Assembly: GCA_030524715.1 (NCBI GenBank)
Contig: JAUNGB010000047.1
Location: 1 to 40,178, forward strand
Direction of reading: 5' to 3'
From: Eubacteriales bacterium
Lineage (GTDB): Bacteria; Bacillota; Clostridia; Lachnospirales; Lachnospiraceae
Length of the DNA stretch: 40,178 bases
Under the pieces are notes generated by a model. It was not told where the DNA came from, ran no database searches, and was given only the letters and a program-made list of their open reading frames with translations. A program made the translations under genes and the position numbers. Positions 1,950 to 16,321 of this stretch are shown piece after piece (the first letter of the stretch is position 1; the number at the start of each line of letters is the position of its first letter).

Positions 1950-2016
1950 GAGGATAAATCATTGAGGAAGTTGTATAAATATTAGAATTATGCATTCTGT
2001 TGGAGGAAGTATTATA

Positions 2017-3597
2017 ATGGAAAATACTGTAGAAAGAAAAAAAGACCTTGCTTCAAGAATAAAGGAAATAGCTGAACAGTTCCTTCAGTTTACGGAAACG
2101 GAATTTATTGATGTTAGTCCATACTTTGCGGATAAAGTTAATGAAACGGTAATGAAGCTATTAGATATAGAAAAGCCCAAGGTTATGGTTTATGGCATTT
2201 ATAATAGCGGGAAAAGTACATTGATTAATGCACTTTGTAAAGAAGAAGTTGCAGAAATGGCTGACAGACCTATGACAGATAAGATTGCGGAATATGACAG
2301 GGGAGATTATTTTCTTGTGGACTCTCCTGGTGTTGATGCACCGATTGCTCATGAAAAGGTTACTAAGGATTATATTAACAAATGTCATATTATTTTATTT
2401 GTGCTTAGTAGCAAGGGAATGTTTGAAGATAAGAAAAATTACGAAAAACTTGCCGAATTGATTACGAAAGATATCCCGTTTGTTATTGTTCTTAATGACA
2501 GAGGATGTCCGGTTGATAAGAAGTGGAATGAAGAGAAGAAAAAAAGAGCCAGGTTTGAGCATGATCAGGAATTAAAGATTATACAGTATAAAATTATTCA
2601 AAACCTGACGAAAGTAAGTGGTGATCAGCGTATTGTTGATCGGTATGAAGTAGTGATTCTAAATGCTAAAAAAGCATTAATGGGAATTCAAAAGAATAAG
2701 CCGCAATTATATGAAACCAGTGGTGTGGAGTTCCTTGATAAAAGAATTTCACAGATGTTAAATAACAGTGAGTCGATCAGTGCCTTGTTTAAACAACCAC
2801 TTGCAAACCTGAAAGAGTGCCTGAATGAGACAGAGAAGATAATTACGCAGACTATGAGCGGCAACACATCAGAGGATTTTGGAATGCGGCTTCACACTCT
2901 TGAACTGAAAAAAGAAAATATTAGGGAAAAAATGAAGATACTTACACTGCATTCGGTGAGAAGCTATTTGGAAGAACTAACAAAATCCTATATGCGGGAA
3001 GATGCAGATATTTTTGAAACAACAGCTATTCAAATATTTAATGATATAGTAGATAAATATTCGATAGAGCTTATTGGACTGAAAGCGTTTGTAAAGGATA
3101 AGTTTAAGAATTTGAAGATTAACATTGATAGTGAGCCCAATCTTTCTTTTGATTTCAGTGGAAAATATGGAAGAGAATTGCCAGTCGAAGAATGGCATAG
3201 TAGGGAAGATAAGATGGAAACTGATACGCTGCCTCCAAAAAGAAGGAGCGGTTTGTTTGACTGGTTTAAATCAAGGAGAAAACGCGAAAAGGAAAGACGC
3301 GAGCAGTTAGAAATGGAAGCAGAGTTTCGAAATGCTCAGGAACGGTATAAGATGCAGGAATTCATGAGACGAAAGCAGGAAGCAAGGCAATTGGCTAGTA
3401 GTGATTTAGATACTTTATATAGAGAGTTTAATGCAGTTGTAAACAGTGGACTGGACAAGAAATACAATGATATTATTTCTCAGATTCAGCAAATTGACCG
3501 TCTCAATAGGCAGATTATAGAAGATGGGAAAAGGCAGATGCAACGAATAAGGGAATGCAGAAAGGAGATTTTAGCAATTGAGAATTGCTTAAGCTAA
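2017..3597 (+). CDS. dynamin-like GTPase 1
   Basis: Encodes 526 residues from the ATG at 2017, which has GGAGG 10 nt upstream; the earlier in-frame ATG at 1990 has no such site. G1 (P-loop) is GIYNSGKST at residues 60-68, a candidate G2 Thr is at 87, G3 is DSPG at 102-105, and G4 is degenerate (VLNDRG, about 158-163). The C-terminal third is highly charged and coiled-coil-like with a basic patch (SRRKREKERREQ). No transmembrane helix is obvious. Family knowledge: bacterial dynamin-like proteins oligomerise on membranes and usually act in pairs or triplets from one operon, as here. The membrane role is inferred. The next GTPase starts 25 nt later. Confidence 0.85.
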   Translation: MENTVERKKDLASRIKEIAEQFLQFTETEFIDVSPYFADKVNETVMKLLDIEKPKVMVYGIYNSGKSTLINALCKEEVAEMADRPMTDKIAEYDRGDYFLVDSPGVDAPIAHEKVTKDYINKCHIILFVLSSKGMFEDKKNYEKLAELITKDIPFVIVLNDRGCPVDKKWNEEKKKRARFEHDQELKIIQYKIIQNLTKVSGDQRIVDRYEVVILNAKKALMGIQKNKPQLYETSGVEFLDKRISQMLNNSESISALFKQPLANLKECLNETEKIITQTMSGNTSEDFGMRLHTLELKKENIREKMKILTLHSVRSYLEELTKSYMREDADIFETTAIQIFNDIVDKYSIELIGLKAFVKDKFKNLKINIDSEPNLSFDFSGKYGRELPVEEWHSREDKMETDTLPPKRRSGLFDWFKSRRKREKERREQLEMEAEFRNAQERYKMQEFMRRKQEARQLASSDLDTLYREFNAVVNSGLDKKYNDIISQIQQIDRLNRQIIEDGKRQMQRIRECRKEILAIENCLS

Positions 3598-3622
3598 TAG
3601 ATGGTGGGAAGGATTGGAAAAG

Positions 3623-4519
3623 ATGAGAAAATTATCTCAAAAGGAACTGAATATTATTGGAAAGTTCTGTGGGGAAAACTATGCAAGGAGAATTCGCACA
3701 ATCCAAGAAAAAAAACAAGAGAATACGGTTCGAATTGTAAATACAGGAATGGTAAGTTCTGGAAAAAGTAGTCTGTATAATGTGCTGATTAATAGAATGG
3801 ATGAATATTTTCCGACAGGAGCCGCCAGAACTACCACCAGGGCTGACTATTTTGATTATAACCATATTTCCTATGTGGACACCCCTGGAATTGATGTTAG
3901 AAGTGAAGATGATGCCTTGGCGTTTAGTACACTTATAGAATCTGATATTATTGTAATGGTTCATAATATTCGTACAGGTCCGCTAAATCGGAACGAAGTG
4001 GAATGGCTGAAGCGGATTACAAGAAGTATGAGCAGTATTGAAATGTGTAAGGCACGTATTTTATTTGTTGCATCCTGGAAGGATACAAGAGAGAAGGATA
4101 GCGATTATAAAAAATTGATCGGAAGCTTAAAACAACAAGCATTTGAAGCTGTTGGTTGTGAGATTCCTTTTTTTGAGGTATCCGTCAAAAAGTATCAGCA
4201 GGGAATCAAGAAAGGTAAGGAAGTTCTGGTAAATAATAGCGGAATACTCGAATTTAAGAATTATCTTGAAGAATACGCAGCCGTTTATCTGGAAAAAAAG
4301 CGTGCATTAGATGAGAGGGAGATGCAGGCTCTGCTACTGGAGGTGATGGGAATCCTTCAGAATGTCCGGAATCAAAAAATGCAAGAGGTGGATAAAATAT
4401 ATGATCAGGTATGCTCCATTTATAAATCCAGAAGCAATGCTTGGAAACAGGTATATGACTTTTTTGCCGCACAGAGACAGAAATTGGCAGGATTGGAGAA
4501 AGAACTGAATAATATCTAA
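3623..4519 (+). CDS. dynamin-like GTPase 2, short form
   Basis: Encodes 298 residues from the ATG at 3623. A TTG at 3614 is in frame, but the AAGGA at 3609-3613 spaces correctly only for the ATG. Motifs: P-loop GMVSSGKSS (42-50), a Thr cluster at 70-72 for G2, DTPG at 86-89 (G3), and SWKD at 151-154 in the G4 position. After the G domain (to about residue 200) comes a short helical region with no long stalk, so this is the smallest of the three GTPases. It may be a regulatory partner of the two longer ones. The tract before the P-loop (residues 20-38) is rich in Lys, Arg and Gln. The next gene begins 14 nt downstream. Confidence 0.85.
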   Translation: MRKLSQKELNIIGKFCGENYARRIRTIQEKKQENTVRIVNTGMVSSGKSSLYNVLINRMDEYFPTGAARTTTRADYFDYNHISYVDTPGIDVRSEDDALAFSTLIESDIIVMVHNIRTGPLNRNEVEWLKRITRSMSSIEMCKARILFVASWKDTREKDSDYKKLIGSLKQQAFEAVGCEIPFFEVSVKKYQQGIKKGKEVLVNNSGILEFKNYLEEYAAVYLEKKRALDEREMQALLLEVMGILQNVRNQKMQEVDKIYDQVCSIYKSRSNAWKQVYDFFAAQRQKLAGLEKELNNI

Positions 4520-4533
4520 GGAGGCTCATTGCT

Positions 4534-4944
4534 ATGGCGGTTATAGGAGCAGTTATAGGGATTGGAGTTGTTGGGATTGCTGCATATGATAACCACAGCG
4601 ATTACAGCGATTATAATAATTATAGTAATTACAGCAATTATTCTGATGCAGCGGAACGCACAAGAAGAAGGAGAGAGAGGAAAGAAAAAGAAATCGAAAC
4701 TCAAAAACAGAATATCAATACATATAAAACAGAAAGTGTAAATGACTATTTAAAGTCGATATCACTAAGGCGGCAAAGCGGTGTAGATGTGAATGTTTTG
4801 GAAGTAAAAAAGGACGGAAATACCAAACTTGAAGAGAAGGTTAAGCTGGATGCAAGAATGGAAAGCACTGCTTTGGTGTCGGAGATTGATGAGTTGGATC
4901 AGGTAATTAAAAAAATTGACCGGATTTTGGAAGAGGAGAAATGA
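4534..4944 (+). CDS. membrane-anchored (Tyr/His)-x-(Asp/Asn) repeat protein, candidate radical-SAM substrate
   Basis: Encodes 136 residues with an AAGGAGG site before the ATG. Residues 2-17 form a Gly/Val/Ile/Ala helix (AVIGAVIGIGVVGIAA). Residues 18-38 are seven uninterrupted triplets: YDN, HSD, YSD, YNN, YSN, YSN, YSD. An Arg/Lys-rich helix (41-50) and a coiled-coil-like C-terminal part follow. Each triplet starts with an aromatic residue and ends in Asp or Asn. This is the aromatic-x-x pattern that cyclophane-forming (triceptide) radical-SAM/SPASM enzymes cross-link, and such an enzyme is encoded 1.8 kb downstream in the same operon. The protein could therefore be a modified structural or membrane peptide, analogous to other short-repeat proteins paired with SPASM enzymes. 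The substrate role is inferred; the repeat is seen directly. Confidence 0.8.
   Translation: MAVIGAVIGIGVVGIAAYDNHSDYSDYNNYSNYSNYSDAAERTRRRRERKEKEIETQKQNINTYKTESVNDYLKSISLRRQSGVDVNVLEVKKDGNTKLEEKVKLDARMESTALVSEIDELDQVIKKIDRILEEEK
4585..4647 (+). repeat. seven codon-triplet repeats encoding (Y/H)-x-(D/N)
   Basis: A 9-nt periodic coding repeat with TAT or CAC at the first codon and GAT, AAC or AAT at the third, corresponding to residues 18-38 of the protein above. The copies differ in codons, which argues for protein-level selection and not just recent DNA slippage. Confidence 0.75.
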
Positions 4945-4945
4945 T

Positions 4946-6703
4946 ATGAGAATGTTGGATAGTATAAATTTATTCGTAGATACGATGCTGGAAGAGCAAA
5001 ACAATTTTGAAAATATGCAGAACACAGTTCAAGAATGGAAGGATCAAGTAAGTGGAGTGCTGAAAACCTTGGAGTATCACGAGAATAAGGTTATTGAAGC
5101 AATAGAAGATGATATCGTGAAATCTCATGACCAGAATATGAAGGAAATTTTTTCTAAAACTTCGGAAGCTTTATCCGCTGCCATGATCGAAGCAGATAAG
5201 AAGATTGATGAAGCTGTAAATGGAATGAAATTTATCGAGGATTTTGACAAGCATTTTACGGTATCTGTTTTTGGAAAAGTAAAGGCAGGCAAGAGCTATT
5301 TGGGAAATCTTTTGATGGGATATCCGCTTAGAAATGCAGGTATACCAAGTTCCTATGATAAGATTAAGGATTTTACGGTTCATGTATATGACAAAGGAAA
5401 ATTATATGAGCAGCATAAGCTTAGCACAGCGGCTGAAAAGGAATGTAACGGTAAGGAATTTTATGTAGATAAGAATGAAGCTACGAGTACAATTCAATGG
5501 GTGAACATAGGAGGTATGTGTTGGTTTGATACGCCTGGAATCGGTAGTGTTACGATCGAAAATGAAGAATTGGCAAAGGAGTATGTACAAAATTCAGATC
5601 TTGTAATTTTTGCTTGCAATTCTGATGCGGCAGGCACACGGCAAGAATTTTATGAAATCAAGCAGCTTCATGATATGAACAAACCACTCCTTCTTCTTTT
5701 GACCCAGTCTGATACATACGACTATGATGTAGATGATGAGGGTGAGGAAATCAATATTTTAATCCCTAAGTCTGAAGAAGACAGGAAGGAACAGGAAAAT
5801 TACATGCTTGAAACTCTTCGGGAACAGGGGATGGAGGATGTGCTTAAATATGCCGATATCCTGACTGTTTCTGCATTACTTGCAACAGAAGCACTGGAAA
5901 ATGACAATGAGGAGATGTTTGAACAGAGTAATATCGGAAAACTCTTGGAAAAGCTTACAAGCATAACCCAAAATGACGCTGCAGATATAAAGAGAAATAC
6001 ACCTAAAGACCGTATTAACAAAATGATTGACAGTATTGTATCAGATTTAGGAAGTGTTTCCGATAAGATAAGCGAATATTGTTCCCAAATTAGAGACTGT
6101 AAGGAACAATTGGAAGATCGTGAGGATGATATAGTTGAGCGGATAAAAGCTTCTCTTCAGATGAAGGTGGATGAGATTTTAGGTTCGGTAAAGTCTCTGG
6201 TGGAACAAACAGGACAACCCGTTTCTGAAAGGGAGATATCGGATCAAATTAATGAAGCTGCACAAAATATTATACAGAAGGTGTGTTCAGATGAAGCAAT
6301 CAGACAGAGTGATTCGATTCCTGATATTGAAATCAAATTATCAGGAATCGGCACGATGAAGATGCAGCAGGATAGAATTCCTTATGAATATGTAAGCGTG
6401 CGTCAGGTTGAGAGAGACCCCTCAGGGTTTGGGGAGAAAGCGTTGGCTTTCATTTTCAAAAAGCAATTCTATACTTCTGAAACGAAAACAGAAACAAAGT
6501 ATTCAATATTTGACATTGGTGTGAATGATGATGAAATTGCGCATAATATTGTAGTACAGTTAGATAGAATCTGTGCGGAGACAGTTAAAGATTATATTAA
6601 TTATCTGGTAGAAGGATATTATAAGCCAGTGGAGAAATTACAGAGAGAGACAGTAGATTTAATGAATAAGGCAATCACTGCCCTTGAAGGAATGCGTATG
6701 TAA
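4946..6703 (+). CDS. dynamin-like GTPase 3, long form
   Basis: Encodes 585 residues from the ATG at 4946, one base after the previous stop, with AGAGGAG upstream. A helical N-terminal segment (residues 1-100) precedes the G domain: P-loop GKVKAGKSY (110-118, with Tyr in place of the usual final Ser/Thr), G3 DTPG at 195-198 and G4 TQSD at 253-256. A long helical stalk follows (about 340-585). The helical arm before the G domain and the long stalk are dynamin-like. No membrane-spanning hairpin is visible. The stop is followed at once by the ATG of the radical-SAM gene, so translation is probably coupled. Partnership with the two smaller GTPases is inferred from the operon. Confidence 0.85.
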   Translation: MRMLDSINLFVDTMLEEQNNFENMQNTVQEWKDQVSGVLKTLEYHENKVIEAIEDDIVKSHDQNMKEIFSKTSEALSAAMIEADKKIDEAVNGMKFIEDFDKHFTVSVFGKVKAGKSYLGNLLMGYPLRNAGIPSSYDKIKDFTVHVYDKGKLYEQHKLSTAAEKECNGKEFYVDKNEATSTIQWVNIGGMCWFDTPGIGSVTIENEELAKEYVQNSDLVIFACNSDAAGTRQEFYEIKQLHDMNKPLLLLLTQSDTYDYDVDDEGEEINILIPKSEEDRKEQENYMLETLREQGMEDVLKYADILTVSALLATEALENDNEEMFEQSNIGKLLEKLTSITQNDAADIKRNTPKDRINKMIDSIVSDLGSVSDKISEYCSQIRDCKEQLEDREDDIVERIKASLQMKVDEILGSVKSLVEQTGQPVSEREISDQINEAAQNIIQKVCSDEAIRQSDSIPDIEIKLSGIGTMKMQQDRIPYEYVSVRQVERDPSGFGEKALAFIFKKQFYTSETKTETKYSIFDIGVNDDEIAHNIVVQLDRICAETVKDYINYLVEGYYKPVEKLQRETVDLMNKAITALEGMRM

Positions 6704-7813
6704 ATGCTGACGATTATTGTAAAAGGAACTAATGGCTGCAACCTTGCTTGCAGCTACTGTTCCTTGGGAAAAAAAGATGATTTTAAGTTTGTTAATCGGG
6801 AAACTCTGGAATATATTTTTGACTGGTCCTGTAGTTATGCAAAGCAGAAAAATGAGAATACGATTAATTTTATTCTTCATGGCGGAGAGCCTACTTTAAT
6901 TCGAACAGAAACCTATCAGGCTGCAATAAATTCAATAAAGATGAATTATCCGGAGTTGAATGTGACTATTTCCATGCAGTCAAATGGCGTAGCAATTACT
7001 GATGAATTTCTTCAATTCATTATTCGAAATGATATGCGTATGGGGATATCTATAGATGGAACAGCAGAGATTCATGATCTAGAGAGGAGAACCTTTGATG
7101 GTAAAGAGTCTTATCAGCGAGTGATTAAGAATATTGAGAGGATGCGGCAGGCTGGCGTAGATGTTTCGTGCCTTATGGTTCTTACGAAAAATGCTGTAGG
7201 AAAGGGGTACGATTACCTGAATTTTTTCGGGCAGAAACATATACATCTGAAAATAAACCCGCTTCTGAACTATGGGGAAGCATACGAACATCCGGAGTTA
7301 TGCCTTGAATCCGGAGAGTATGCCGAATATTTAATCAGTGTATATCAATACTTGATTGAAAAAGACATTCCGGCTACAGTATCGCCTATTGATGATATTA
7401 TACGTGCGATTGTAAATAAACAAAGAATTGGAGAATGTTCATTTAATCCTGATTGCAGCAGCCATTTCTTATGTATTGACTATGTAGGGGATATATACCC
7501 CTGTGGGAAGTTTTCAGATATGAATAAATTTAAACTTGGAAATATTAAGGACAACATTGTGGATGAAAGTATTTTACAGACCTTGAATGACAGAAGAGGC
7601 AGTAAAAGTCCAGTGGCATGTAGGAAATGCGAATATCTGTGGCTATGCAATTGTGGCTGTAGTGCAGAAGCTTGTATAGACGGTGACTTTTTCGCCGAAC
7701 CAAAGTTGTGTAAGGACTATAAGATGCTGTTTGATTATTTCTCCAAAGATGGATTGATTCTGCTGCGAAAGGAGCTAATAAGACAAAAGAGAATATTGGA
7801 GGAAAAACGATAG
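6704..7813 (+). CDS. radical-SAM/SPASM peptide-maturase-like enzyme
   Basis: Encodes 369 residues, with the ATG abutting the GTPase stop. The radical-SAM [4Fe-4S] motif is C12-x3-C16-x2-C19 (CNLACSYC), followed by HGGEP at 59-63 for SAM binding. The C-terminal third is a Cys-rich SPASM region (ECSFNPDC, YPCGKF, CRKCEYLWLCNCGC, KLCKDY) for auxiliary Fe-S clusters. This layout is that of anaerobic sulfatase maturases and RiPP maturases such as the cyclophane-forming enzymes. No separate RiPP-recognition domain is visible and the motif starts almost at residue 1. The nearest candidate substrate is the triad-repeat protein at 4534-4944. The class is firm; the reaction is inferred. Confidence 0.88.
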   Translation: MLTIIVKGTNGCNLACSYCSLGKKDDFKFVNRETLEYIFDWSCSYAKQKNENTINFILHGGEPTLIRTETYQAAINSIKMNYPELNVTISMQSNGVAITDEFLQFIIRNDMRMGISIDGTAEIHDLERRTFDGKESYQRVIKNIERMRQAGVDVSCLMVLTKNAVGKGYDYLNFFGQKHIHLKINPLLNYGEAYEHPELCLESGEYAEYLISVYQYLIEKDIPATVSPIDDIIRAIVNKQRIGECSFNPDCSSHFLCIDYVGDIYPCGKFSDMNKFKLGNIKDNIVDESILQTLNDRRGSKSPVACRKCEYLWLCNCGCSAEACIDGDFFAEPKLCKDYKMLFDYFSKDGLILLRKELIRQKRILEEKR

Positions 7814-9513
7814 TGGATTATGAACTATTGCTTATTAATGTATCCAGGGATTATAGTGGCCTTTCGGAGTCATTCCGTGACAGTATAGGTCAGTATTTAA
7901 TCGCAGCGTATTTGCGGAGTATGGACTTTAAGGCATTTGTTTATTCTGGTGATATCAAAGGTTGTAAAACCGTCATAGAGAAAGAACTTAACAATCATAG
8001 AACAGGGATGATTGGTTTCTATGTTGCAGCAGACAATATTCGTGTAACGGAACATGTGATTTATTGGGTAAAGCAAAAGTACCCGTGGTGCAGAACCATT
8101 GTAGGAGGGCCGCAGGCAGTGGGGTTGGACTATGATTTTTTTGAACGGACGGGAAATGACTTTGCAATCATGGGAGAAGGAGAAATTCCTGTGTATTACC
8201 TGCTTTTATCAGTTGTAGATCATGATTTTGGGCTTGAGAAAGTACCGTCTCTGATTAGAAGAGATGATGAGAAAACATCATTAGTGATAAACGGGTGTAA
8301 AGATGCGGTAATTAATAATCTGGATATGCTTGATTTTCCGAGAAATGCAGATAGCATTACCGGAAGACTCAGACAAGGAGAGGTTGTAGGTATCATTACC
8401 GGAAGAGGCTGCCCTTTTAACTGCTCCTTTTGTTATGAAGGTGCCAATGCAAAAAATGTTCGTTTAAGAAGTATATCAAAAGTCATGGAAGAGATTGACT
8501 ACATTAGGGAAAATAATCCGAAATTGAAGTTTATATATGTTTATGATGATACGTTTACGTTGAAAAAAGAGCGGGTACTCGAATTTTGTACGGAAATGAA
8601 AAAACGTGAGCTGATGTGGTTTTGCGAAGGTCACATTACATTTGTGTTAAAGCATCCGGATGTTCTTGAAAAAATGGTTGAATCCGGCCTTGTTTGCATT
8701 CAATTTGGAATTGAGAGTGGTTCAGATAAGGTATTAGATGCGTATCATAAGCATACGAGTTTTGATATGATTCTGGAGGCTGTAGATATTTGCAAAAAAG
8801 CAGGAGTTCATAGTATAACCGGTAATTTTATTATTGGCGGTGCCCATGAAACCAGGGAAACTATAGAAATGAGTAAGCATCTTGCAGGAGAGCTGATACG
8901 GCGGGCAAAAGGGATTATTGAGCTTCGAACAGTATATTTTGCCCCATATCCAAATACGAAAATGGTCAGGGAACCGGAACAATTTGGAATAGAAATTCTT
9001 AAGGATGCGCAGGAGATAAGTATTAATACAATGAGGACGCCTGTTGTCCGTACCAAAGAATTATCAAGAGAAAATATATATGATTTGAAGCATGAGTTTG
9101 ATGAGTTTTTAAAGGCAGAATATAGAGTTGCTGCCCATAATGCAAGAAAGGCAGATATACAGCAAGGGTTGTTTCATAATGGAATACGAATATCTGTGAA
9201 TCCAACATGGGAGCATATATATTCGGAAACACCCCATATATCAGCGTTTTTAAACCATATGATGGAAGAAGAGCAAAATTTTCATGCTGATTATTACATA
9301 ATCAGGACGTTTGAAGATATCAAAATAAAAGGTGGAAGGCTTATTTCTGATGTAGGTGTGTTTGAAAATCTGGAAAAGGATATTTTAACTTATGCAACAG
9401 GACTCTATACCGCCAGCCAGATGGCAGAAATGTTTCATACATCTATTGCGGTGATAGAAAAATGTTATTATAGTTTGAATGAAAGATGCTTGGTTTATAT
9501 AACTGAATTTTAA
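7813..9513 (+). CDS. B12-binding-domain-type radical-SAM enzyme
   Basis: Encodes 566 residues. The GTG start overlaps the preceding TAG by one base and has GGAGG about 10 nt upstream. Residues 1-135 form a Rossmann-like cobalamin-type domain ending with GGPQA and MGEGE, typical of the B12-radical-SAM class. The DxHxxG cobalamin-ligand motif is not present, so any B12 would be bound base-off without the His ligand or not at all. The radical-SAM motif is C200-x3-C204-x2-C207, followed by a DDTF strand and FGIESGS. The C-terminal 100 residues resemble a small winged-helix or peptide-recognition domain (TASQMAEMFHTS). Such enzymes methylate or rearrange unactivated carbons, including in RiPPs. 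The function here is inferred. Confidence 0.85.
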   Translation: MDYELLLINVSRDYSGLSESFRDSIGQYLIAAYLRSMDFKAFVYSGDIKGCKTVIEKELNNHRTGMIGFYVAADNIRVTEHVIYWVKQKYPWCRTIVGGPQAVGLDYDFFERTGNDFAIMGEGEIPVYYLLLSVVDHDFGLEKVPSLIRRDDEKTSLVINGCKDAVINNLDMLDFPRNADSITGRLRQGEVVGIITGRGCPFNCSFCYEGANAKNVRLRSISKVMEEIDYIRENNPKLKFIYVYDDTFTLKKERVLEFCTEMKKRELMWFCEGHITFVLKHPDVLEKMVESGLVCIQFGIESGSDKVLDAYHKHTSFDMILEAVDICKKAGVHSITGNFIIGGAHETRETIEMSKHLAGELIRRAKGIIELRTVYFAPYPNTKMVREPEQFGIEILKDAQEISINTMRTPVVRTKELSRENIYDLKHEFDEFLKAEYRVAAHNARKADIQQGLFHNGIRISVNPTWEHIYSETPHISAFLNHMMEEEQNFHADYYIIRTFEDIKIKGGRLISDVGVFENLEKDILTYATGLYTASQMAEMFHTSIAVIEKCYYSLNERCLVYITEF

Positions 9514-9526
9514 GGGAGGGAAAAAT

Positions 9527-10384
9527 ATGCTGAATAATGATTATAAAGAACAGGCAATTCGTGATCTTAAAAAGATCGATCACGAATATACAACCGTCTT
9601 TAAAAAAACGGTAAATGATATGGAGAGATTGCAAAGTACAAGAAAAATAACAGTCCGCACGATACAATGTGTGGAAAGGTATATTATTTCACTGGCGAAT
9701 CGGCCGAGAAATTTTGATACGAAAATTAGTGAAAATAAAATTCGTTACCTGAAATTTGAGGACACATGTAGAAAAATTTTGGAAATAGAACAAAAAAAGG
9801 AAGGACAGCAGGCTATCAAAGGGATTGGTACAGCCAGTGCGTTGGCAGGAGCTGGTATTGCGGCTTTGGGACCAACTGCGGCAATGGCCATTGCAACGAC
9901 TTTTGGTACCGCTTCTACAGGTACAGCCATTGCTTCGTTGTCCGGAGCTGCGGCTACAAACGCAGCCTTAGCATGGTTGGGAGGTGGTGCTTTAGCAGCA
10001 GGTGGAGCTGGAATGGCAGCAGGAGAGATGTTTCTTGCTATGACAGGTCCTATTGGATGGGCGATAGGAGGTATTTCTTTGACAGCAAGTTTGGTAGCGG
10101 TCAATTTGTCAAATAAAGAAATTGCTAAGAAAACGGAAAAGAGTATTGCTGCAATTAAGAAAGAGATAGAACGAATCAAGGAAATCGACATCCAAGTTCT
10201 TAGCTGGAATAATGAAACAAAGGCTCTTTCTAATGGAATAATGAACAGACTAAACTATATCCGTTCTAACAGGAAGCGAGATTATCAGATGTTTACGGAT
10301 GATGAAATGAACGAATTAATCAGTATAATGAATTCCACCGAGGTTTTATCAAAGCTTCTTGGAAAGACTATTGAGGAAAAATAA
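9527..10384 (+). CDS. Gly/Ala-rich membrane-active-looking protein
   Basis: Encodes 285 residues with a strong GGGAGGG site. The N-terminal 95 residues are helical and charged. Residues 99-194 form a long Gly/Ala-rich hydrophobic domain containing AWLGGGALAAGGAGMAAG and MTGPIGWAIGG. The C-terminal 90 residues are again charged and helical. Such glycine-zipper blocks are common in proteins that insert into membranes and recur beside bacterial GTPases and toxins. It may be a membrane-inserting partner of the GTPases or a pore-type effector. No catalytic motif is seen. The gene is directly joined to the next one (stop at 10384, start at 10385). Confidence 0.75.
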   Translation: MLNNDYKEQAIRDLKKIDHEYTTVFKKTVNDMERLQSTRKITVRTIQCVERYIISLANRPRNFDTKISENKIRYLKFEDTCRKILEIEQKKEGQQAIKGIGTASALAGAGIAALGPTAAMAIATTFGTASTGTAIASLSGAAATNAALAWLGGGALAAGGAGMAAGEMFLAMTGPIGWAIGGISLTASLVAVNLSNKEIAKKTEKSIAAIKKEIERIKEIDIQVLSWNNETKALSNGIMNRLNYIRSNRKRDYQMFTDDEMNELISIMNSTEVLSKLLGKTIEEK

Positions 10385-11761
10385 ATGAGTATGTATGATG
10401 TGGCTTTGGACAAAAAAGAGAAGGAAATTGTGTGGTCGAAAGATACTTGTGATCGGCAGGATTATCTGATAGCTGTTTCATGTGGGGCATTGGCGGGTCT
10501 GGTTGATATATTTTTTGTAGGCGGTGCGGCAACAAAGTTTAACGAACTAAGTCTGCTAGGAAAAATGTCAGATAAAATGTTTGATGAAATTGTCAAAAAT
10601 ATCAGTAGAGCTTTAGGATGGACTCCTCGGGCAGGGAATGAAAATAATATGTCCTCAGCCATTCATTTTTTGGAGAACAGATATAAGGTTCCATATGAAC
10701 ATACCAGTACAAAGGATGTTCATGGACTGTTTAAAATGAATGCAAAGGACCATCATATAAAATCACTAGCTCATGCCCCAGATCCTATAGGTTTGTTTTT
10801 TTCTATATTAGATCAGTTTACAAATTCAGCATCATTTGTAAGTAATGGTAAAATCATCAGAATTGATGCTTCAGAAAGAGGATTTGAGTTACAGGGAAGC
10901 AATTTTATTTCAAAAATATATTGCGGTTTTTGCAACTGGATCGGACATTTGCTTTCAGATGTTGTTGGGAGCAACGGGGTAAGACAGGTTGGTTCCGATG
11001 GACGAGGAACAGGATTACCCATTCCATTTATGGAATTGTTCCTTATGTGTGATTTTGGAACTTTTCAGATAGGAAAAGATAGGCAATCTTTAGCTGTTTT
11101 GATGACGAGAGTCTTTTCAAGTGGCTATGATATGCGCTATTCTGGAGCGATGGCAATTCCGGTCATCCTGGAAGAATTGATGATAAAAGTTCTTTGGGCG
11201 TTAAAACGGCATTTTTATCACAAAAAAGACTGGAGTGAATGTATTCCGACATCAAAACATGCGGATTTACGGATGATGGTATTGATCGGAAATGGAACTC
11301 TCTGCATATTCGATGGTGTTGATGCTGCTGTGAGGGCTGGGATTCAGGGAGGAAATGCATTGATATTTGTTCTTCATTTGAATCTTGTAGCGTGGGCACG
11401 GCTAATTGTTCTTGTTTTTAGAGAACTGCGAATTCGCTATGGTGTTAAGATTGATCAGGCCGTATCAAGATATTTGGCTGAAATAGGTCTTAATGATGCA
11501 TATGCACTTAAGCAATATTATGAGCGTATGAATATATTAGATCAGAAATTGGATCAGATGCTGAAGGATTTTGCCGTTTATGCAGAAAGAGAATACCGTA
11601 AATTTATGGAAGGGATGAACAGAAGTTTAAATCCTGCGATGGGAACATCTCTACAACGAAGAAACGCAAGTATAGAGTTTGCGAGAAACCAGGGAGTCGA
11701 CCCGAAAAGAATTATGAAAACACCAGAGGAACTACGCTATTGGCTAGATGGAGGAAAGTAA
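10385..11761 (+). CDS. unknown protein with putative membrane segments
   Basis: Encodes 458 residues starting at the base after the previous stop. One hydrophobic helix is likely at residues 27-48 (YLIAVSCGALAGLVDIFFVG) and another near 330-352 (ALIFVLHLNLVAWARLIVLV). Between them are His-rich and Gly-Pro-rich stretches (KDHHIKSLAHAPDPIGLFF) and many aromatic residues. The C terminus (TPEELRYWLDGG) looks soluble. I do not recognise a named family. Its place in the operon, and its tight spacing with the Gly/Ala-rich protein, suggest the two act together at the membrane. Confidence 0.75.
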   Translation: MSMYDVALDKKEKEIVWSKDTCDRQDYLIAVSCGALAGLVDIFFVGGAATKFNELSLLGKMSDKMFDEIVKNISRALGWTPRAGNENNMSSAIHFLENRYKVPYEHTSTKDVHGLFKMNAKDHHIKSLAHAPDPIGLFFSILDQFTNSASFVSNGKIIRIDASERGFELQGSNFISKIYCGFCNWIGHLLSDVVGSNGVRQVGSDGRGTGLPIPFMELFLMCDFGTFQIGKDRQSLAVLMTRVFSSGYDMRYSGAMAIPVILEELMIKVLWALKRHFYHKKDWSECIPTSKHADLRMMVLIGNGTLCIFDGVDAAVRAGIQGGNALIFVLHLNLVAWARLIVLVFRELRIRYGVKIDQAVSRYLAEIGLNDAYALKQYYERMNILDQKLDQMLKDFAVYAEREYRKFMEGMNRSLNPAMGTSLQRRNASIEFARNQGVDPKRIMKTPEELRYWLDGGK

Positions 11762-11773
11762 TAGAATTGGCTG

Positions 11774-12274
11774 ATGAAAAAAATAGGTAGCAGAAAGTAT
11801 ATCAATGATTGCGGTGAAATGTCAGATGTATATATGAGAATTGCCGAAGAAGATGAAAAAGCGGCAAATATTTTGTCTCAGGCAGGATATTATAATCAAT
11901 CCGTATATTATATGATACAGTCTATGGAGAAATATATAAAGGGCCTCATATGTAAAAAAGTTAATGTTATGAATGGGTATTTTGAAACAAAATTGTTTAA
12001 AACAGGACATTCTTTAGATGATTCCTTAGATTTTCTTATAGAAATAATGGCAGGAGGAGATAAATTATTAGAGGAACATCTTAAAACGCAGATGAAAGAA
12101 GAAATTTTGGAAAATGTCAAATATTCAAAATTATATAATGAGGTAAGATATCCTGGTTATAAAAGACATAATCAAAGGTATTCTATATTAGAAATATCTT
12201 CAAAAGATTATCAAGAGATTCATAACACCTTCAGTATTTTAAAAAGATTTTTGGATGATTTGATCAGAATGTGA
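11774..12274 (+). CDS. HEPN-domain protein
   Basis: Encodes 166 residues. The N-terminal half has the HEPN helix pattern (repeated Ala, then YYNQSVYYMIQSMEKYIKGL at about 39-58). The catalytic signature R125-x6-H132 is present (RYPGYKRH), preceded by the conserved Asn-Glu. HEPN proteins with Rx4-6H are often RNases in toxin-antitoxin and antiviral systems; others are only structural. No MNT nucleotidyltransferase partner is adjacent. It is the last gene of the operon (12 nt after the previous stop, 133 nt before the next gene). The fold call is good; activity is not proven. Confidence 0.78.
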   Translation: MKKIGSRKYINDCGEMSDVYMRIAEEDEKAANILSQAGYYNQSVYYMIQSMEKYIKGLICKKVNVMNGYFETKLFKTGHSLDDSLDFLIEIMAGGDKLLEEHLKTQMKEEILENVKYSKLYNEVRYPGYKRHNQRYSILEISSKDYQEIHNTFSILKRFLDDLIRM

Positions 12275-12364
12275 ATAATTCGAGAAATAAATGTTTGCAT
12301 CGCATTAAATTTAGCTAATAAATAGAAAACCTATTATTTACTAAAACATGTAAATGTTAATAAG

Positions 12365-12400
12365 CACATACCTGTAACTACTAACCCTGCTCAGAAAGGA
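12365..12400 (+). repeat. 36-nt leader repeat, copy A
   Basis: Ungapped match at 29 of 36 positions to 14131-14166. It ends in AGAAAGGA, which is the ribosome site of the downstream gene. Shared blocks include GTAACTA and AACCCTG. Confidence 0.7.
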
Positions 12401-12407
12401 AAAGAAT

Positions 12408-12890
12408 ATGGAATATTTTTCAACAGAATTCATAAACACTATGAATGAGTTAAAAAGCGAGCGTTTTCAAAATGGATTCAGAAATTGTGTGCATGAAATT
12501 GATAAATATATTGAAAACGAAGAAGAAAAAAGACGCATACATATGTCGATAGAAGCGAATATGAGACTTGCGGAAAAGGGGAATATGATATGTCCATATT
12601 GTTTATTTAGTGGTTCTGATTTTGAAAATCAAGATGAAGCAATCAAATTTGTGGTAGAAGATGTTACAGGCAGATATATGTTCGATGAGAATATCCTTGA
12701 AGCTACAATTGTTGTCATGTGTTTACATTTCAATGGAATATCATTGGCAGATAAAACTTTAAAAGCATTGCCAGTGGTAATTGGAATAAACTACGTAGAA
12801 CAAGGTCGTCCTGTTCCGGAAATAATTATCTGTGAGAATGCTAAAGACAGCGATTTGGGAAATGGATATAAAATATATTGGATGAAATAA
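12408..12890 (+). CDS. unknown small CxxC protein
   Basis: Encodes 160 residues with AGAAAGGA upstream of the ATG. It has an acidic/basic helical N-terminal region with a CPYC motif near residue 62 (MICPYCLFSGSDF), a compact block with VVMCLHFNG, and a C-terminal strand-rich part. The CxxC could bind metal as half of a zinc site or be redox-active; only one pair is evident. No family recognised. It overlaps no other gene and is 29 nt upstream of the serpin, so the two probably form one unit under the leader repeat at 12365. Confidence 0.7.
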   Translation: MEYFSTEFINTMNELKSERFQNGFRNCVHEIDKYIENEEEKRRIHMSIEANMRLAEKGNMICPYCLFSGSDFENQDEAIKFVVEDVTGRYMFDENILEATIVVMCLHFNGISLADKTLKALPVVIGINYVEQGRPVPEIIICENAKDSDLGNGYKIYWMK

Positions 12891-12919
12891 ACACCCATTT
12901 GCAAAGGAGAATTCAAAAT

Positions 12920-14047
12920 ATGACGAATAATACAACATTAAAACTGGTTGATTTTTCAATGGATTTATTTAAAAATTGTGTAAAAAACGATAAAAATAAT
13001 AATGTGTTAGTTTCGCCATTTTCCCTGTTGTACGCTCTTGGGATAGCTGCTAATGGCGCTGTCGGTGAAACAAAGAGCGAAATGGAAAAATTATGGGGAG
13101 TCCCCACAGAAGAATTGAATCAGTATTTATACGAATATGCGCAGTCATTGCCTCAGGATGGCGACTGCACATTTAAGATTGCAAATTCTCTTTGGGTGAA
13201 CCCGGAAGACGGATTGACGCTTTCACAGGATTTTCTGGAAAAAAACAAAAGCTATTACGATGCTTTGGTAGTTCGGGAGCCTTTTAATGATGGATGCAAA
13301 GATAAAATTAATGGCTGGGTAAAAGAAAAAACAGACGGTATGATTGATAAGGTCGTAGATTCTTTTTCTGATGCGGATATGCTGCTCTTGTTAAATGCTT
13401 TGGCATTTAATGCAAAATGGGAGAAGTCACGCATGAAAATAGAAGAGCAAATATTTACTGCCTGGGACGGAACTGCTCAGAATGCCAGGATGATGTTTAG
13501 CAGTGAACGCGACTATTTATCAGATGAACATGCGTCTGGCTTTCTGAAATTTTATAATAACTCAAGATTTGCTTTTGCCGCTTTACTTCCGGATGAATCA
13601 ACAAATATTAATGACTATCTGTCTGAGCTTACGGGAGAAAAACTGAGAACAATTTTGTCAACAGTTCAGAAGGCAGAGGTGAGAGTTAAACTTCCGATTT
13701 TTACTATTGAGGCGCAGTATAGCAATCTGAAGGAAACCTTAAAGGAAATGGGAATGGTAAAAGCTTTTTCAGGAGAGGCGGATTTTTCCGGATTGCTGAC
13801 AGCAGTCGGTGAGGATACTGTTGTTGATGAAAATCTGAATATCAATGAAATCCAACAAAAGACATTTATTACTGTGAATGAGTACGGTACAAAATTAAGT
13901 GCTTTGGTAGGGGCATGCATGTCAAGAAGTTTAAGGCCTGAACCAAAATCAGTAGTATTAAACCGTCCGTTTGTTTATATGATCATTGATCGTGAGAAGA
14001 ATCTGCCGATTTCTATGGGAGTTTTAATGAAGCTGAAAAAAGATTAA
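12920..14047 (+). CDS. serpin (serine-protease inhibitor family), cytoplasmic
   Basis: Encodes 375 residues from the ATG at 12920, which has AAAGGAGA 9 nt upstream; an earlier in-frame ATG at 12878 overlaps the preceding gene. The length is normal for serpins. Recognisable features are VLVSPFSLLYALGIAANGA (helix B), FNAKW, the breach strand, and the C-terminal RPFVYMIIDREKNLPISMG. The reactive-centre loop lies at about residues 321-345; counting from the hinge Gly323 puts P1 near Ser337, with Arg336 and Arg339 as alternatives. The hinge (GTKLSALVG) is less Ala-rich than in classical inhibitory serpins. There is no signal peptide, so the target would be intracellular or released on lysis. Confidence 0.9.
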   Translation: MTNNTTLKLVDFSMDLFKNCVKNDKNNNVLVSPFSLLYALGIAANGAVGETKSEMEKLWGVPTEELNQYLYEYAQSLPQDGDCTFKIANSLWVNPEDGLTLSQDFLEKNKSYYDALVVREPFNDGCKDKINGWVKEKTDGMIDKVVDSFSDADMLLLLNALAFNAKWEKSRMKIEEQIFTAWDGTAQNARMMFSSERDYLSDEHASGFLKFYNNSRFAFAALLPDESTNINDYLSELTGEKLRTILSTVQKAEVRVKLPIFTIEAQYSNLKETLKEMGMVKAFSGEADFSGLLTAVGEDTVVDENLNINEIQQKTFITVNEYGTKLSALVGACMSRSLRPEPKSVVLNRPFVYMIIDREKNLPISMGVLMKLKKD

Positions 14048-14467: not shown

Positions 14468-15610
14468 ATGAAAACAATTAACGGAGTCTATACCTCTGCT
14501 ATTATTTTTACCACAGAAAATGAAAAAACAAATATTGACCAGTATGCTGTAGCGCAGCTTCAGGCGCTTTGCGATAATCCTGTTAATGCTGGCTGTAAAA
14601 TCCGGGTGATGCCGGATGTTCATCCGGGAAAGGTGGGGACGATCGGGCTTACGCAGACCATTGGCAGTGCAGTCATTCCAAATGTTGTTGGAATTGATAT
14701 TGGCTGTGGAATCACTTTGGCGCAGATAAAAGGAAAGAAATGTGAATTTCAGAAGCTGGATACCGTTATCAGAGACAGTATTCCTTCCGGTTTTCAGGTG
14801 CGTGATAAGGTTCACCGTTTTGCACAGAAATTTGACTTTTCATTGCTTTATTGTGGGAAGAGTATCCGTAAGGATAAAGCGCTTTTAAGCCTTGGAACCT
14901 TAGGTTCGGGAAATCATTTTATTGAGTTGGATAAGGATGAAGATGGAAATCTTTATATTGCCATTCATTCCGGAAGCCGCCATCTTGGAAAGGAAGTTAC
15001 GGAGTACTATCTGAATGCAGGTCAGGGGAAATTGAAGGAGCAGGGCGTGGAAATTCCTTATGAGCTTACTTATCTTACAGGAACTCTTATGGAGCAGTAT
15101 CTCCATGATATTCAGATCATTCAGGAGTTTGCGGCGCTTAACAGAGAAATTATGATAGACGAGCTTTGCAGAGGAATGAAGTGGAAGATTATAGATATGT
15201 ATAGTTCTGCTCACAACTATGTAGAAGGCGCAGAGACCTCTTATAATGGGCTTCCGATTCTCAGAAAGGGCGCAATTTCAGCCAAAAAGAATGAAAAGGT
15301 TATTATTCCGATCAATATGCATGACGGCATTATCCTTGGCACTGGTCTGGGGAATGAAGAATGGAATGCTTCCGCCCCTCATGGAGCGGGACGGATTATG
15401 AAGCGTGAAGATGTAAAAGCAAATTATACGGTTTCCTCATTCAGAACAGCCATGAAAGGAATCTATTGTTCGTCTATTGGAAAAGATACTCTGGATGAAG
15501 CGCCGTTTGCTTACCGGGGAATTGATGAAATTGCGGAAGTAATTGGCGATACCGTAAAAATTGAGAAGGTTATCAGACCCATCTATAATTTCAAAGCCGG
15601 CAACAAATAA
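14468..15610 (+). CDS. rtcB: RtcB-type RNA ligase
   Basis: Encodes 380 residues, the short bacterial form. RtcB joins 2',3'-cyclic-phosphate or 3'-phosphate RNA ends to 5'-OH ends using GTP and Mn2+, repairing tRNA or rRNA cut by endonucleases. Visible signatures are PDVHPGKVGTIG (49-60), GIDIGCG with metal-ligand Cys80, LGSGNHF (145-151), HSGSR (167-171) and HGAGR, whose His305 is the guanylylation site. The start at 14468 follows AAAGGA. It is preceded by the leader described above and followed by a small Cys-rich protein and a broken MoxR gene. Its position beside a HEPN protein suggests a damage/repair context, which is inferred. Confidence 0.93.
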   Translation: MKTINGVYTSAIIFTTENEKTNIDQYAVAQLQALCDNPVNAGCKIRVMPDVHPGKVGTIGLTQTIGSAVIPNVVGIDIGCGITLAQIKGKKCEFQKLDTVIRDSIPSGFQVRDKVHRFAQKFDFSLLYCGKSIRKDKALLSLGTLGSGNHFIELDKDEDGNLYIAIHSGSRHLGKEVTEYYLNAGQGKLKEQGVEIPYELTYLTGTLMEQYLHDIQIIQEFAALNREIMIDELCRGMKWKIIDMYSSAHNYVEGAETSYNGLPILRKGAISAKKNEKVIIPINMHDGIILGTGLGNEEWNASAPHGAGRIMKREDVKANYTVSSFRTAMKGIYCSSIGKDTLDEAPFAYRGIDEIAEVIGDTVKIEKVIRPIYNFKAGNK

Positions 15611-15954: not shown

Positions 15955-16223
15955 ATGAATTTACCAATTTCTGTCACTCAGAGTGACTTATTAGAAGTAT
16001 TACTGAATGTTGCTCCCGTCAGACCGGTTTTTATCTGGGGAGCGCCCGGAATCGGAAAATCTGCTCTGGTGGAGCAGTTTGCGGAGGAAGTAGGACTGCC
16101 TTGTGTTTCTTTGCTTGGAATATTGAAAATGATCTGTTTATTCATCATGAGCATGCGTATCTCCTTCCTAAAGGAAGTAAATTGCCGTTTCGCCCAAAAG
16201 GAAAGGTGTTTTATTTCGAATAG
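15955..16223 (+). pseudogene. chimeric remnant: MoxR-type AAA+ ATPase N terminus joined out of frame to another gene's 3' end
   Basis: From 15955 the frame reads as the N terminus of a MoxR ATPase, including the Walker A sequence GAPGIGKSALVEQF, up to VSLLG near 16110. It then loses similarity and continues as unrelated residues to 16305. In a different frame, from about 16113 to the TAG at 16221-16223, there is a natural-looking C-terminal segment (WNIENDLFIHHEHAYLLPKG, then SKLPFRPKGKVFYFE). The simplest reading is an internal deletion that removed most of the ATPase and the start of a downstream gene. MoxR/VWA gene pairs are known companions of RtcB. Confidence 0.7.
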
Positions 16224-16253
16224 TAAATTTAGAGTTCTTCACAATTCCGTTGC

Positions 16254-16282
16254 TTTACAACCCTTTCAATGTATGCTAGAGT
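16254..16282 (+). promoter_or_regulatory. possible promoter upstream of the ribokinase gene
   Basis: TTTACA (16254-16259), 17 nt, TAGAGT (16277-16282). TTGCTT at 16250 with TATGCT at 16272 is an alternative pairing. Neither is strong. Confidence 0.3.
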
Positions 16283-16321
16283 GTAATTATATCAGATGGA
16301 TCTAAAAATCCTACGGATTTT

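Follow-up and report, generated by a model that had tools for sequence, protein, structure and literature searches.

In the 40,178-nucleotide stretch of contig JAUNGB010000047.1 analysed here (hereafter the window), a SPASM radical-SAM enzyme probably forms a series of three-residue cyclophanes in the linker of a membrane adaptor that belongs to a dynamin-type, defence-like machine, with a B12 radical-SAM enzyme adding a second modification; a probability of about 0.6 is given to this reading. As far as the sequence tells, the anatomy of the adaptor, its operon, the co-occurrence of array and enzymes, the triad pattern and the enzyme classes are clear, and the array of triads is the putative substrate of the SPASM enzyme. 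The features concerned are the following.

1990..3597, + strand: GTPase 1, dynamin-like (LeoA-like), 535 aa (Pfam Dynamin_N 9.7e-15; PADLOC LeoA 7.2e-26, a partial match)
3614..4519, + strand: GTPase 2, short dynamin-like, 301 aa (Pfam MMR_HSR1 2.1e-9, Dynamin_N 1.2e-7; PADLOC LeoA 9.8e-18)
4534..4944, + strand: small adaptor, 136 aa, with hydrophobic N-terminus, triad array, basic stretch and helical coil (aligned with six homologues)
4585..4647, + strand: seven (Y/H)-x-(D/N) triads, proposed SPASM substrate (comparable arrays in five distinct homologues)
4946..6703, + strand: GTPase 3, dynamin-like (LeoBC-like), 585 aa (Pfam Dynamin_N 4.3e-8; PADLOC LeoBC 3.4e-25, a partial match; homologues)
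6704..7813, + strand: radical-SAM/SPASM peptide-maturase-like enzyme, 369 aa (profile matches; cysteines invariant in five)
7813..9513, + strand: B12-binding radical-SAM enzyme, 566 aa, with a C-terminal winged-helix (RRE-like) domain at about 9292-9510
9527..10384, + strand: glycine-zipper protein, PDC-M09A-like (PADLOC PDC-M09A 4.7e-95)
10385..11761, + strand: BnzB-like defence protein, a neighbour (PADLOC BnzB 1.1e-123)

The adjoining genes of the adaptor operon are separated by at most 16 bp or overlap, and the adaptor ATG is preceded by AAGGAGG. The start of GTPase 3 was taken as the ATG at 4946, the program-made list of open reading frames placing it earlier, at a TTG. The glycine-zipper protein is probably an associated cargo rather than a core component; a weaker PDC-M09A match (3.7e-27, PADLOC) lies near the homologous locus L161.

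The adaptor reads MAVIGAVIGIGVVGIAA-YDN-HSD-YSD-YNN-YSN-YSN-YSD-AAERTRRRR..., so that the seven uninterrupted triads, the basic and coiled C-terminus and the SPASM gene two genes downstream in the same operon, all described in an earlier sequence-only reading of the window, were recovered. The same reading placed a hydrophobic helix before the array: the 17 N-terminal residues are indeed hydrophobic and uncharged (Kyte-Doolittle mean 2.49), but because residues 1-33 have an AlphaFold pLDDT under 50 and the predicted helices span residues 32-81 and 88-135, with none before residue 32, the helix is presumed rather than modelled. Weak matches of the adaptor to FPRL1-inhibitor/FLIPr models (E 0.004-0.005), seen for the window adaptor alone, were set aside as chance coil matches.

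The codons of the triads vary while the residues are kept, and the array is therefore not a product of slippage. Besides, four successive TAYNNNRAY units occur within the window in the array only (matching at two overlapping positions), 100 dinucleotide shuffles contain no such run, and seven linker triads were reached in 0/5000 residue shuffles (mean 2.36). Chance and slippage are ruled out on these three grounds.

Relatives of the adaptor locus were found in Lachnospiraceae and Synergistota, with three or four GTPases per locus and adaptors of 134-142 aa whose helical C-terminus is conserved in the alignment. A close relative of the SPASM enzyme lies downstream on the same contig in 5/6 distinct array-bearing loci, the sixth pairing with one through an identical overlap with another assembly, and the B12 radical-SAM enzyme comes next in every array locus whose contig extends far enough. 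Homologous operons that keep the enzyme and lack the repeat, which the sequence-only reading had set as the observation that would speak against it, were looked for, and no SPASM enzyme stands beside an array-less adaptor among the loci found. The association of array and SPASM enzyme thus holds; cyclophane formation itself is inferred.

The arrays contain six or seven triads. Over the 41 triads of six adaptors (the two G795 copies entered once, one extra His in L161 set aside and the L161 HYS counted as a triad), position 1 is Y, H or W in 40, and position 3 is D or N in 35, with A, E and S also seen there. Each array opens with Y/H and closes with D (6/6), and both Y-x-D and H-x-A triads are present; the His of the second triad is variable, with Leu in L007. 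On this evidence, the triads vary as expected of a cyclophane substrate, with Y/H/W at position 1 and D/N/A/E/S at position 3. It is very improbable that the array binds iron or another metal while the radical-SAM enzymes have their targets elsewhere: Tyr, His and Asp can coordinate metals and are the conserved residues of the array, but Asn, Leu and Trp also occur at these places, and neither the spacing by three residues nor the association with an enzyme of the peptide-maturase type would be accounted for.

Regarding the SPASM enzyme, C12, C16 and C19 of the radical-SAM CxxxCxxC motif are invariant in the five enzymes aligned, as are C245, C251, C267, C306, C309, C315, C319 and C336, whose spacing we take to be the SPASM pattern. 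It stays below the curated cut-offs of all named families listed, including the cyclophane families YhhB (123.5 bits against 445), GrrM/OscB (115.7/310), FxsB (98.8/370), AmcB (93/425) and XyeB (57.4/450). Its best named match is DynA (NF041298; 208.4 bits, under the cut-off of 450), which is matched by all five members scanned. A dynobactin or darobactin system (DynA, DarE) differs in that the score here is far under the cut-off and that no exporter was found by Pfam among the ten window proteins scanned (1990-12887). Similarly, the anaerobic sulfatase maturase model (TIGR03942) gives 192.3 bits for a cut-off of 349.45, and no sulfatase, nor any protease or transporter, is among these ten proteins.

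Three-residue cyclophanes are known mainly from short, excised, exported peptides. According to the review PMC11002830, the enzymes forming them include YxdB, HaaB, YhhB, XncB, OscB and MscB, and cyclophanes are described for Y-x-D (YxdB) and H-A-A (HaaB, ScaB). As in the triceptide systems covered by this review, a SPASM radical-SAM enzyme adjoins a protein with triads running from an aromatic residue to a third residue. In contrast to them, neither a protease nor an exporter was found among the ten window proteins scanned and, in place of a short leader-bearing precursor, the putative substrate is 134-142 aa long, combines a coiled coil with a hydrophobic N-terminus and is encoded in a GTPase operon. 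Triads of the triceptide kind are found here in a linker, that of a protein which is probably anchored in the membrane and belongs to a dynamin-like GTPase set.

It is rather unlikely that the SPASM enzyme acts on the array by another reaction, such as Tyr-Tyr or Tyr-His links joining adjacent triads (i to i+3), epimerisation, an oxidised middle Ser, or ether instead of C-C bonds. The co-occurrence of array and enzyme would suit these reactions equally, the enzyme's named relatives DynA, DarE, PapB, sulfatase maturase and quinohemoprotein maturase presumably cover varied chemistry, and Ser is the commonest middle residue (22/41); however, a fixed Ser is not needed, since D, G, E, N, A and Y occur in the middle too, and the D/N preference at position 3 together with the constant Y/H start and D end fits a link from i to i+2 better than from i to i+3.

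In the preferred reading, the 136-aa protein would act as membrane adaptor in a dynamin-type machine with several GTPases, its uncharged hydrophobic N-terminus presumably serving membrane attachment and its C-terminal coil contacting the GTPases, with six or seven aromatic-x-acidic triads separating the two parts. The SPASM enzyme would abstract a hydrogen from C-beta of residue 3 (Asp/Asn, sometimes Ala/Glu/Ser) and join this carbon to the ring of residue 1 (Tyr/His/Trp), and the resulting run of three-residue cyclophanes may stiffen an otherwise flexible linker, giving a spacer that resists proteases. With its RRE-like domain as guide, the B12 radical-SAM enzyme would modify the same protein, most simply by C-methylation, and the machine would probably act in phage defence or membrane stress. 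A more specific picture is offered tentatively, with the odds somewhat against it: that of a rigid polycyclophane rod made by the SPASM enzyme and methylated by the RRE-guided B12 enzyme. The rod would be a lasting mechanical component of a dynamin machine for phage defence or membrane repair and would fix how far the GTPases lie from the membrane, flexible poly-Ser taking its place in relatives. If true, radical-SAM peptide chemistry would serve inside the cell to alter how a membrane-remodelling and probably anti-phage machine works mechanically, and the product of RiPP chemistry would be a permanent component of cellular machinery instead of a peptide for secretion. With as many as seven sites open to modification, the adaptor would also be a useful substrate for following SPASM action along a chain.

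The triad array is found in none of three homologous modules devoid of the radical-SAM enzymes. Two of these, on Klebsiella (L025) and Photobacterium (L026) plasmids, likewise have an operon of GTPase, small adaptor (hydrophobic N-terminus and charged part), dynamin and GTPase, but a poly-Ser linker takes the place of the array and no radical-SAM gene is annotated alongside; their dynamin is 20-25% identical to those of the enzyme-bearing loci. The third, which has also lost a GTPase domain, nests inside the enzyme-bearing clade and looks as if array and enzymes were lost together. Poly-Ser and triad linkers form a ready test pair for the role of stiffness in such machines. The two plasmid modules come from searches that returned 37 and 36 plasmid records with GTPase 3 relatives, six of which were examined: one of the 29 from Klebsiella/Raoultella/Citrobacter, those from Photobacterium, Acetobacter, Caballeronia and Diaphorobacter, and one from Acinetobacter. 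An annotated adaptor is present in the Klebsiella and Photobacterium records only, and these two were counted; the Acetobacter, Diaphorobacter and Acinetobacter plasmids carry paired GTPases without an annotated adaptor, and the Caballeronia record, which carries no annotation, was left out of the adaptor count. The Klebsiella adaptor was read from an inner Met in the residue-shuffle and triad/hydropathy tallies.

Such poly-Ser stretches are what one would expect if the array were a mere polar low-complexity linker and both radical-SAM enzymes modified something else, e.g. a GTPase or a membrane lipid, and the similarity of the B12 enzyme to HpnJ and to lipid enzymes of the ladderane type points the same way. 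Viral contigs add to this, with at least 120 matches to a five-triad DNA pattern: of the 120 loci listed, 91 contain an in-frame run of five or more triads within an open stretch of at least 30 residues, and only one has a SPASM match nearby, a weak one (6e-9), and one a B12 radical-SAM match. Many of the 40 viral arrays translated are perfect repeats at the peptide level. The idea that any Y-x-D array marks a SPASM system is thereby ruled out, and since Y-x-D/N-type arrays are not rare, the array means little without its context. Nevertheless, a mere linker is distinctly unlikely here, given that residues are kept while codons differ, that conservation is higher in the array than in the coil for 14/15 pairs of adaptors, and that, among the modules seen, it is kept across two phyla solely where the enzymes are present. 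In a reverse control, the 71 viral loci that carry distant SPASM relatives (1.04 Mb) contained neither a run of four [YHWF]-x-[DN] triads nor one of five [YHWF]-x-[DNEA] triads, two scans that recover 4/6 and 5/6 of the arrays described here, the stricter one missing two.

As to the B12 enzyme, ApyD (NF050148) is a named relative in 5/5 members (best 4.3e-33), although the window enzyme reaches 114.6 bits for a cut-off of 750 and HpnJ scores slightly higher. ApyD is described in PMC10635010 as a B12-dependent radical-SAM enzyme making beta-methyltyrosine. It has an RRE, and the window enzyme has an RRE-like C-terminal domain, which by sequence search gave no PqqD/RRE match in Pfam or PDB and only weak matches, helix-turn-helix families among them. 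The B12 enzyme, the poly-Ser linkers of the enzyme-less relatives and the defence-like setting were absent from the first reading of the window.

All three window GTPases match LeoA or LeoBC in PADLOC, the LeoA-LeoBC defence system being, as we take it, the one named Eleos; these matches are partial, the library gives no cut-offs, and the locus differs by its three or four GTPases, its adaptor and its two radical-SAM enzymes. LeoA, LeoB and LeoC are bacterial dynamins (PMC4159319), and bacterial dynamin-like genes are mostly paired in operons (PMC6104087). No radical-SAM-modified dynamin or defence adaptor turned up in searches of an open-access library.

A phage or plasmid origin of the SPASM enzyme is set aside: its 11 relatives in phage records are 23-28% identical, and none is on plasmids at 1e-30. 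GTPase 3 was found in no viral contig or phage, the L006 adaptor had no match on plasmids, and the Klebsiella module stretch had none in E. coli genomes. As a query in a first genome-contig scan, the SPASM protein gave no match, and GTPase 3, in a second scan, led to L005-L007; in G025, whose contig starts just before GTPase 3, GTPase 2 was not found. Homologues are rare: with the source genome included, the SPASM enzyme occurs in 2/145 relatives at 1e-40, 1/392 genomes of the order at 1e-50 and 1/265 of the class at 1e-70, and it occurs in 2/185 genomes of the phylum of G763 at 1e-70. GTPase 3, counted over overlapping genome sets, is present in 2/64 genomes (genus), 2/397 (family) and 1/299 (phylum), and in 4/119, 1/61 and 4/43 genomes of further sets.

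Contig C172 of a 5.28 Mb assembly (completeness 100, contamination 5.02) makes up the window, which carries an operon of eight co-directional genes, spaced by at most 16 bp or overlapping:

1990-3597, +, GTPase 1, dynamin-like by Pfam, matching the PADLOC LeoA/LeoBC models
3614-4519, +, GTPase 2, dynamin-like by Pfam, matching the PADLOC LeoA/LeoBC models
4534-4944, +, small adaptor protein with the triad array
4946-6703, +, GTPase 3, dynamin-like by Pfam, matching the PADLOC LeoA/LeoBC models
6704-7813, +, SPASM radical-SAM enzyme
7813-9513, +, B12-binding radical-SAM enzyme
9527-10384, +, PDC-M09A-like glycine-zipper protein (PADLOC)
10385-11761, +, BnzB-like protein (PADLOC)

The adaptor starts with 17 hydrophobic, uncharged residues, followed by the array, a basic stretch and then a helical coil. 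The seven triads claimed by the sequence-only reading are indeed present, and seven were reached in 0/5000 residue shuffles of the linker; besides, a four-triad DNA pattern has the array as its sole site within the window (0/100 shuffles). Y-x-N/D arrays are also frequent in viral contigs (at least 120 loci with a five-triad DNA pattern, L031-L150), several being perfect peptide repeats, such as ten YLN or eight YHD.

Relatives were found by GTPase 3 profile searches, which retrieved the Blautia contig L005 (by its length the same contig as L003), the Synergistales contig L006 and the loci named below. The closest relative with the enzyme is G025, from the window's genus, which seems to be the genome of this Blautia contig. 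The Lachnospiraceae contig L007 holds the upstream half of the locus and overlaps L003 by 431 identical bases. Three further genomes of the genus of L006 carry the locus (L157, L158/L159, L160), as does L161, in another genome from the window's family. Gene order is conserved (GTPase 1, GTPase 2, adaptor, GTPase 3, SPASM enzyme, B12 enzyme), except that L158/L159 of genome G795 have a further short GTPase of 394 aa after the adaptor, just before GTPase 3. These two contigs bear one locus, and the listed flanking genes agree on either side; the locus could be truly duplicated, or the assembly could have produced the second copy.

Six distinct arrays were thus available, L007 included:

Window: YDN HSD YSD YNN YSN YSN YSD
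L157: HED HSA HSD YDN YSN HSD YSD
L158: HGD HSA HSD YDN YGN YGD YSD
L160: HED HSA HSA YGD YDN YSD
L161: HDD YSD H YSD HYS YDD WGE YSD

Over their 41 triads, position 1 is Y26 H13 W1 L1, position 2 S22 D7 G7 E2 N1 A1 Y1, and position 3 D25 N10 A4 S1 E1. The proposed association with a SPASM enzyme proves stronger than could be known from the window: the gene lies downstream on the array's own contig in five of the six loci, L157 being counted although its contig stops 132 residues into the gene. For L007, the SPASM gene comes after the locus on L003, a contig from another assembly, L007's own assembly giving distant SPASM matches only (best 2.7e-32).

With regard to selection at the residue level, 14 of the 21 array residues are common to the window and L007, and 9 of those 14 codons differ. 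Over 15 adaptor pairs, mean identity is 55% in the array, 51% in the N-terminus and 39% in the coil; array identity exceeds coil identity in 14 pairs, barely in some, and is inflated by the array's small alphabet. Triad counts were likewise matched in 0/5000 shuffles for L007, L157 and L158, more weakly in L161 (7/5000) and L160 (85/5000).

That the adaptor, as a lasting component encoded in a dynamin operon, undergoes triceptide-like chemistry is a well-founded, if unproven, inference. In all six arrays, an aromatic residue comes first after the membrane part and an Asp last before the basic stretch, limits that fit ring-to-i+2 units. Since the basic stretch would, by the positive-inside rule, stay inside, the array and coil are suggested to face the cytoplasm, where the enzyme and the GTPases are. 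Cyclophanes in a row would make a stiff spacer that separates the membrane from the GTPases, where relatives manage with poly-Ser. The arrays mix triad types of kinds known from published enzymes: according to PMC11002830, YxdB makes a bond between Tyr C3 and Asp C-beta, HaaB and ScaB one between His C2 and Ala C-beta in H-A-A, a His-to-Tyr change is tolerated in the ScaB substrate, and Trp and Phe are used by other cyclophane-forming enzymes. The reaction of the B12 enzyme may be guessed by likeness to ApyD, which makes beta-methyltyrosine (PMC10635010).

Modules without the enzymes were also found. Klebsiella and Photobacterium plasmids carry a four-gene module (GTPase, adaptor, dynamin, GTPase) beside which no radical-SAM gene is annotated; their adaptors combine a hydrophobic N-terminus, with two charged residues in the first 17 in Photobacterium, and a poly-Ser linker, and the shuffle comparison found no triads in them. 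The L006 locus holds GTPase 2, adaptor and GTPase 3. Some 65 bp further on begins the next frame of the listing, on the opposite strand. The L006 adaptor has neither hydrophobic N-terminus nor array (2 triads, reached in 404/5000 shuffles), and a SPASM search of the L006 genome was negative at 1e-70 (best match distant, 2.1e-26). Because GTPase 3 of L006 nests within the enzyme-bearing clade, sister to L157 (98/97), in a tree where window, Photobacterium and Acetobacter are flagged as long branches, the array and both enzymes were probably lost together. GTPase 1 is there a 216-residue C-terminal remnant without G domain (L006 7913-8563; 47% match to residues 289-512 of L157 GTPase 1), and the whole module may therefore be decaying.

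The neighbours are defence-like. Besides PDC-M09A and BnzB in the window, the fourth gene past the B12 enzyme in L161 matches PDC-M09A more weakly, and a protein after that enzyme in L003 weakly matches phospholipase effectors, which we read as patatin-like. On the Photobacterium toruni plasmid (L026, 1-15152), the poly-Ser module is flanked by csm6/cas1/cas2 and a RAMP gene. In L158 and L160, no defence-like neighbours were seen by eye in the gene listing. The module is patchily distributed, being present in 4 of 43 genomes in one genus and in 2 of 64 in that of the window; together with these neighbours, this makes a candidate defence role plausible. In L003, the stretch 4595-11018 encodes this phospholipase-like protein and, further on, a 1421-aa protein matching PD-T4-6 models; L026 has two additional GTPase genes upstream of the module.

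Immediately 3' of the BnzB-like gene, the window encodes a HEPN-domain protein (11774-12274; Pfam 9.7e-9), possibly of the same island. A little past these genes lie a full serpin (12878-14047; Pfam 9.9e-80), then an RtcB RNA ligase (14468-15610) and a 116-aa ORF (15955-16305) whose match covers just part of an AAA ATPase model and which looks like a truncated gene.
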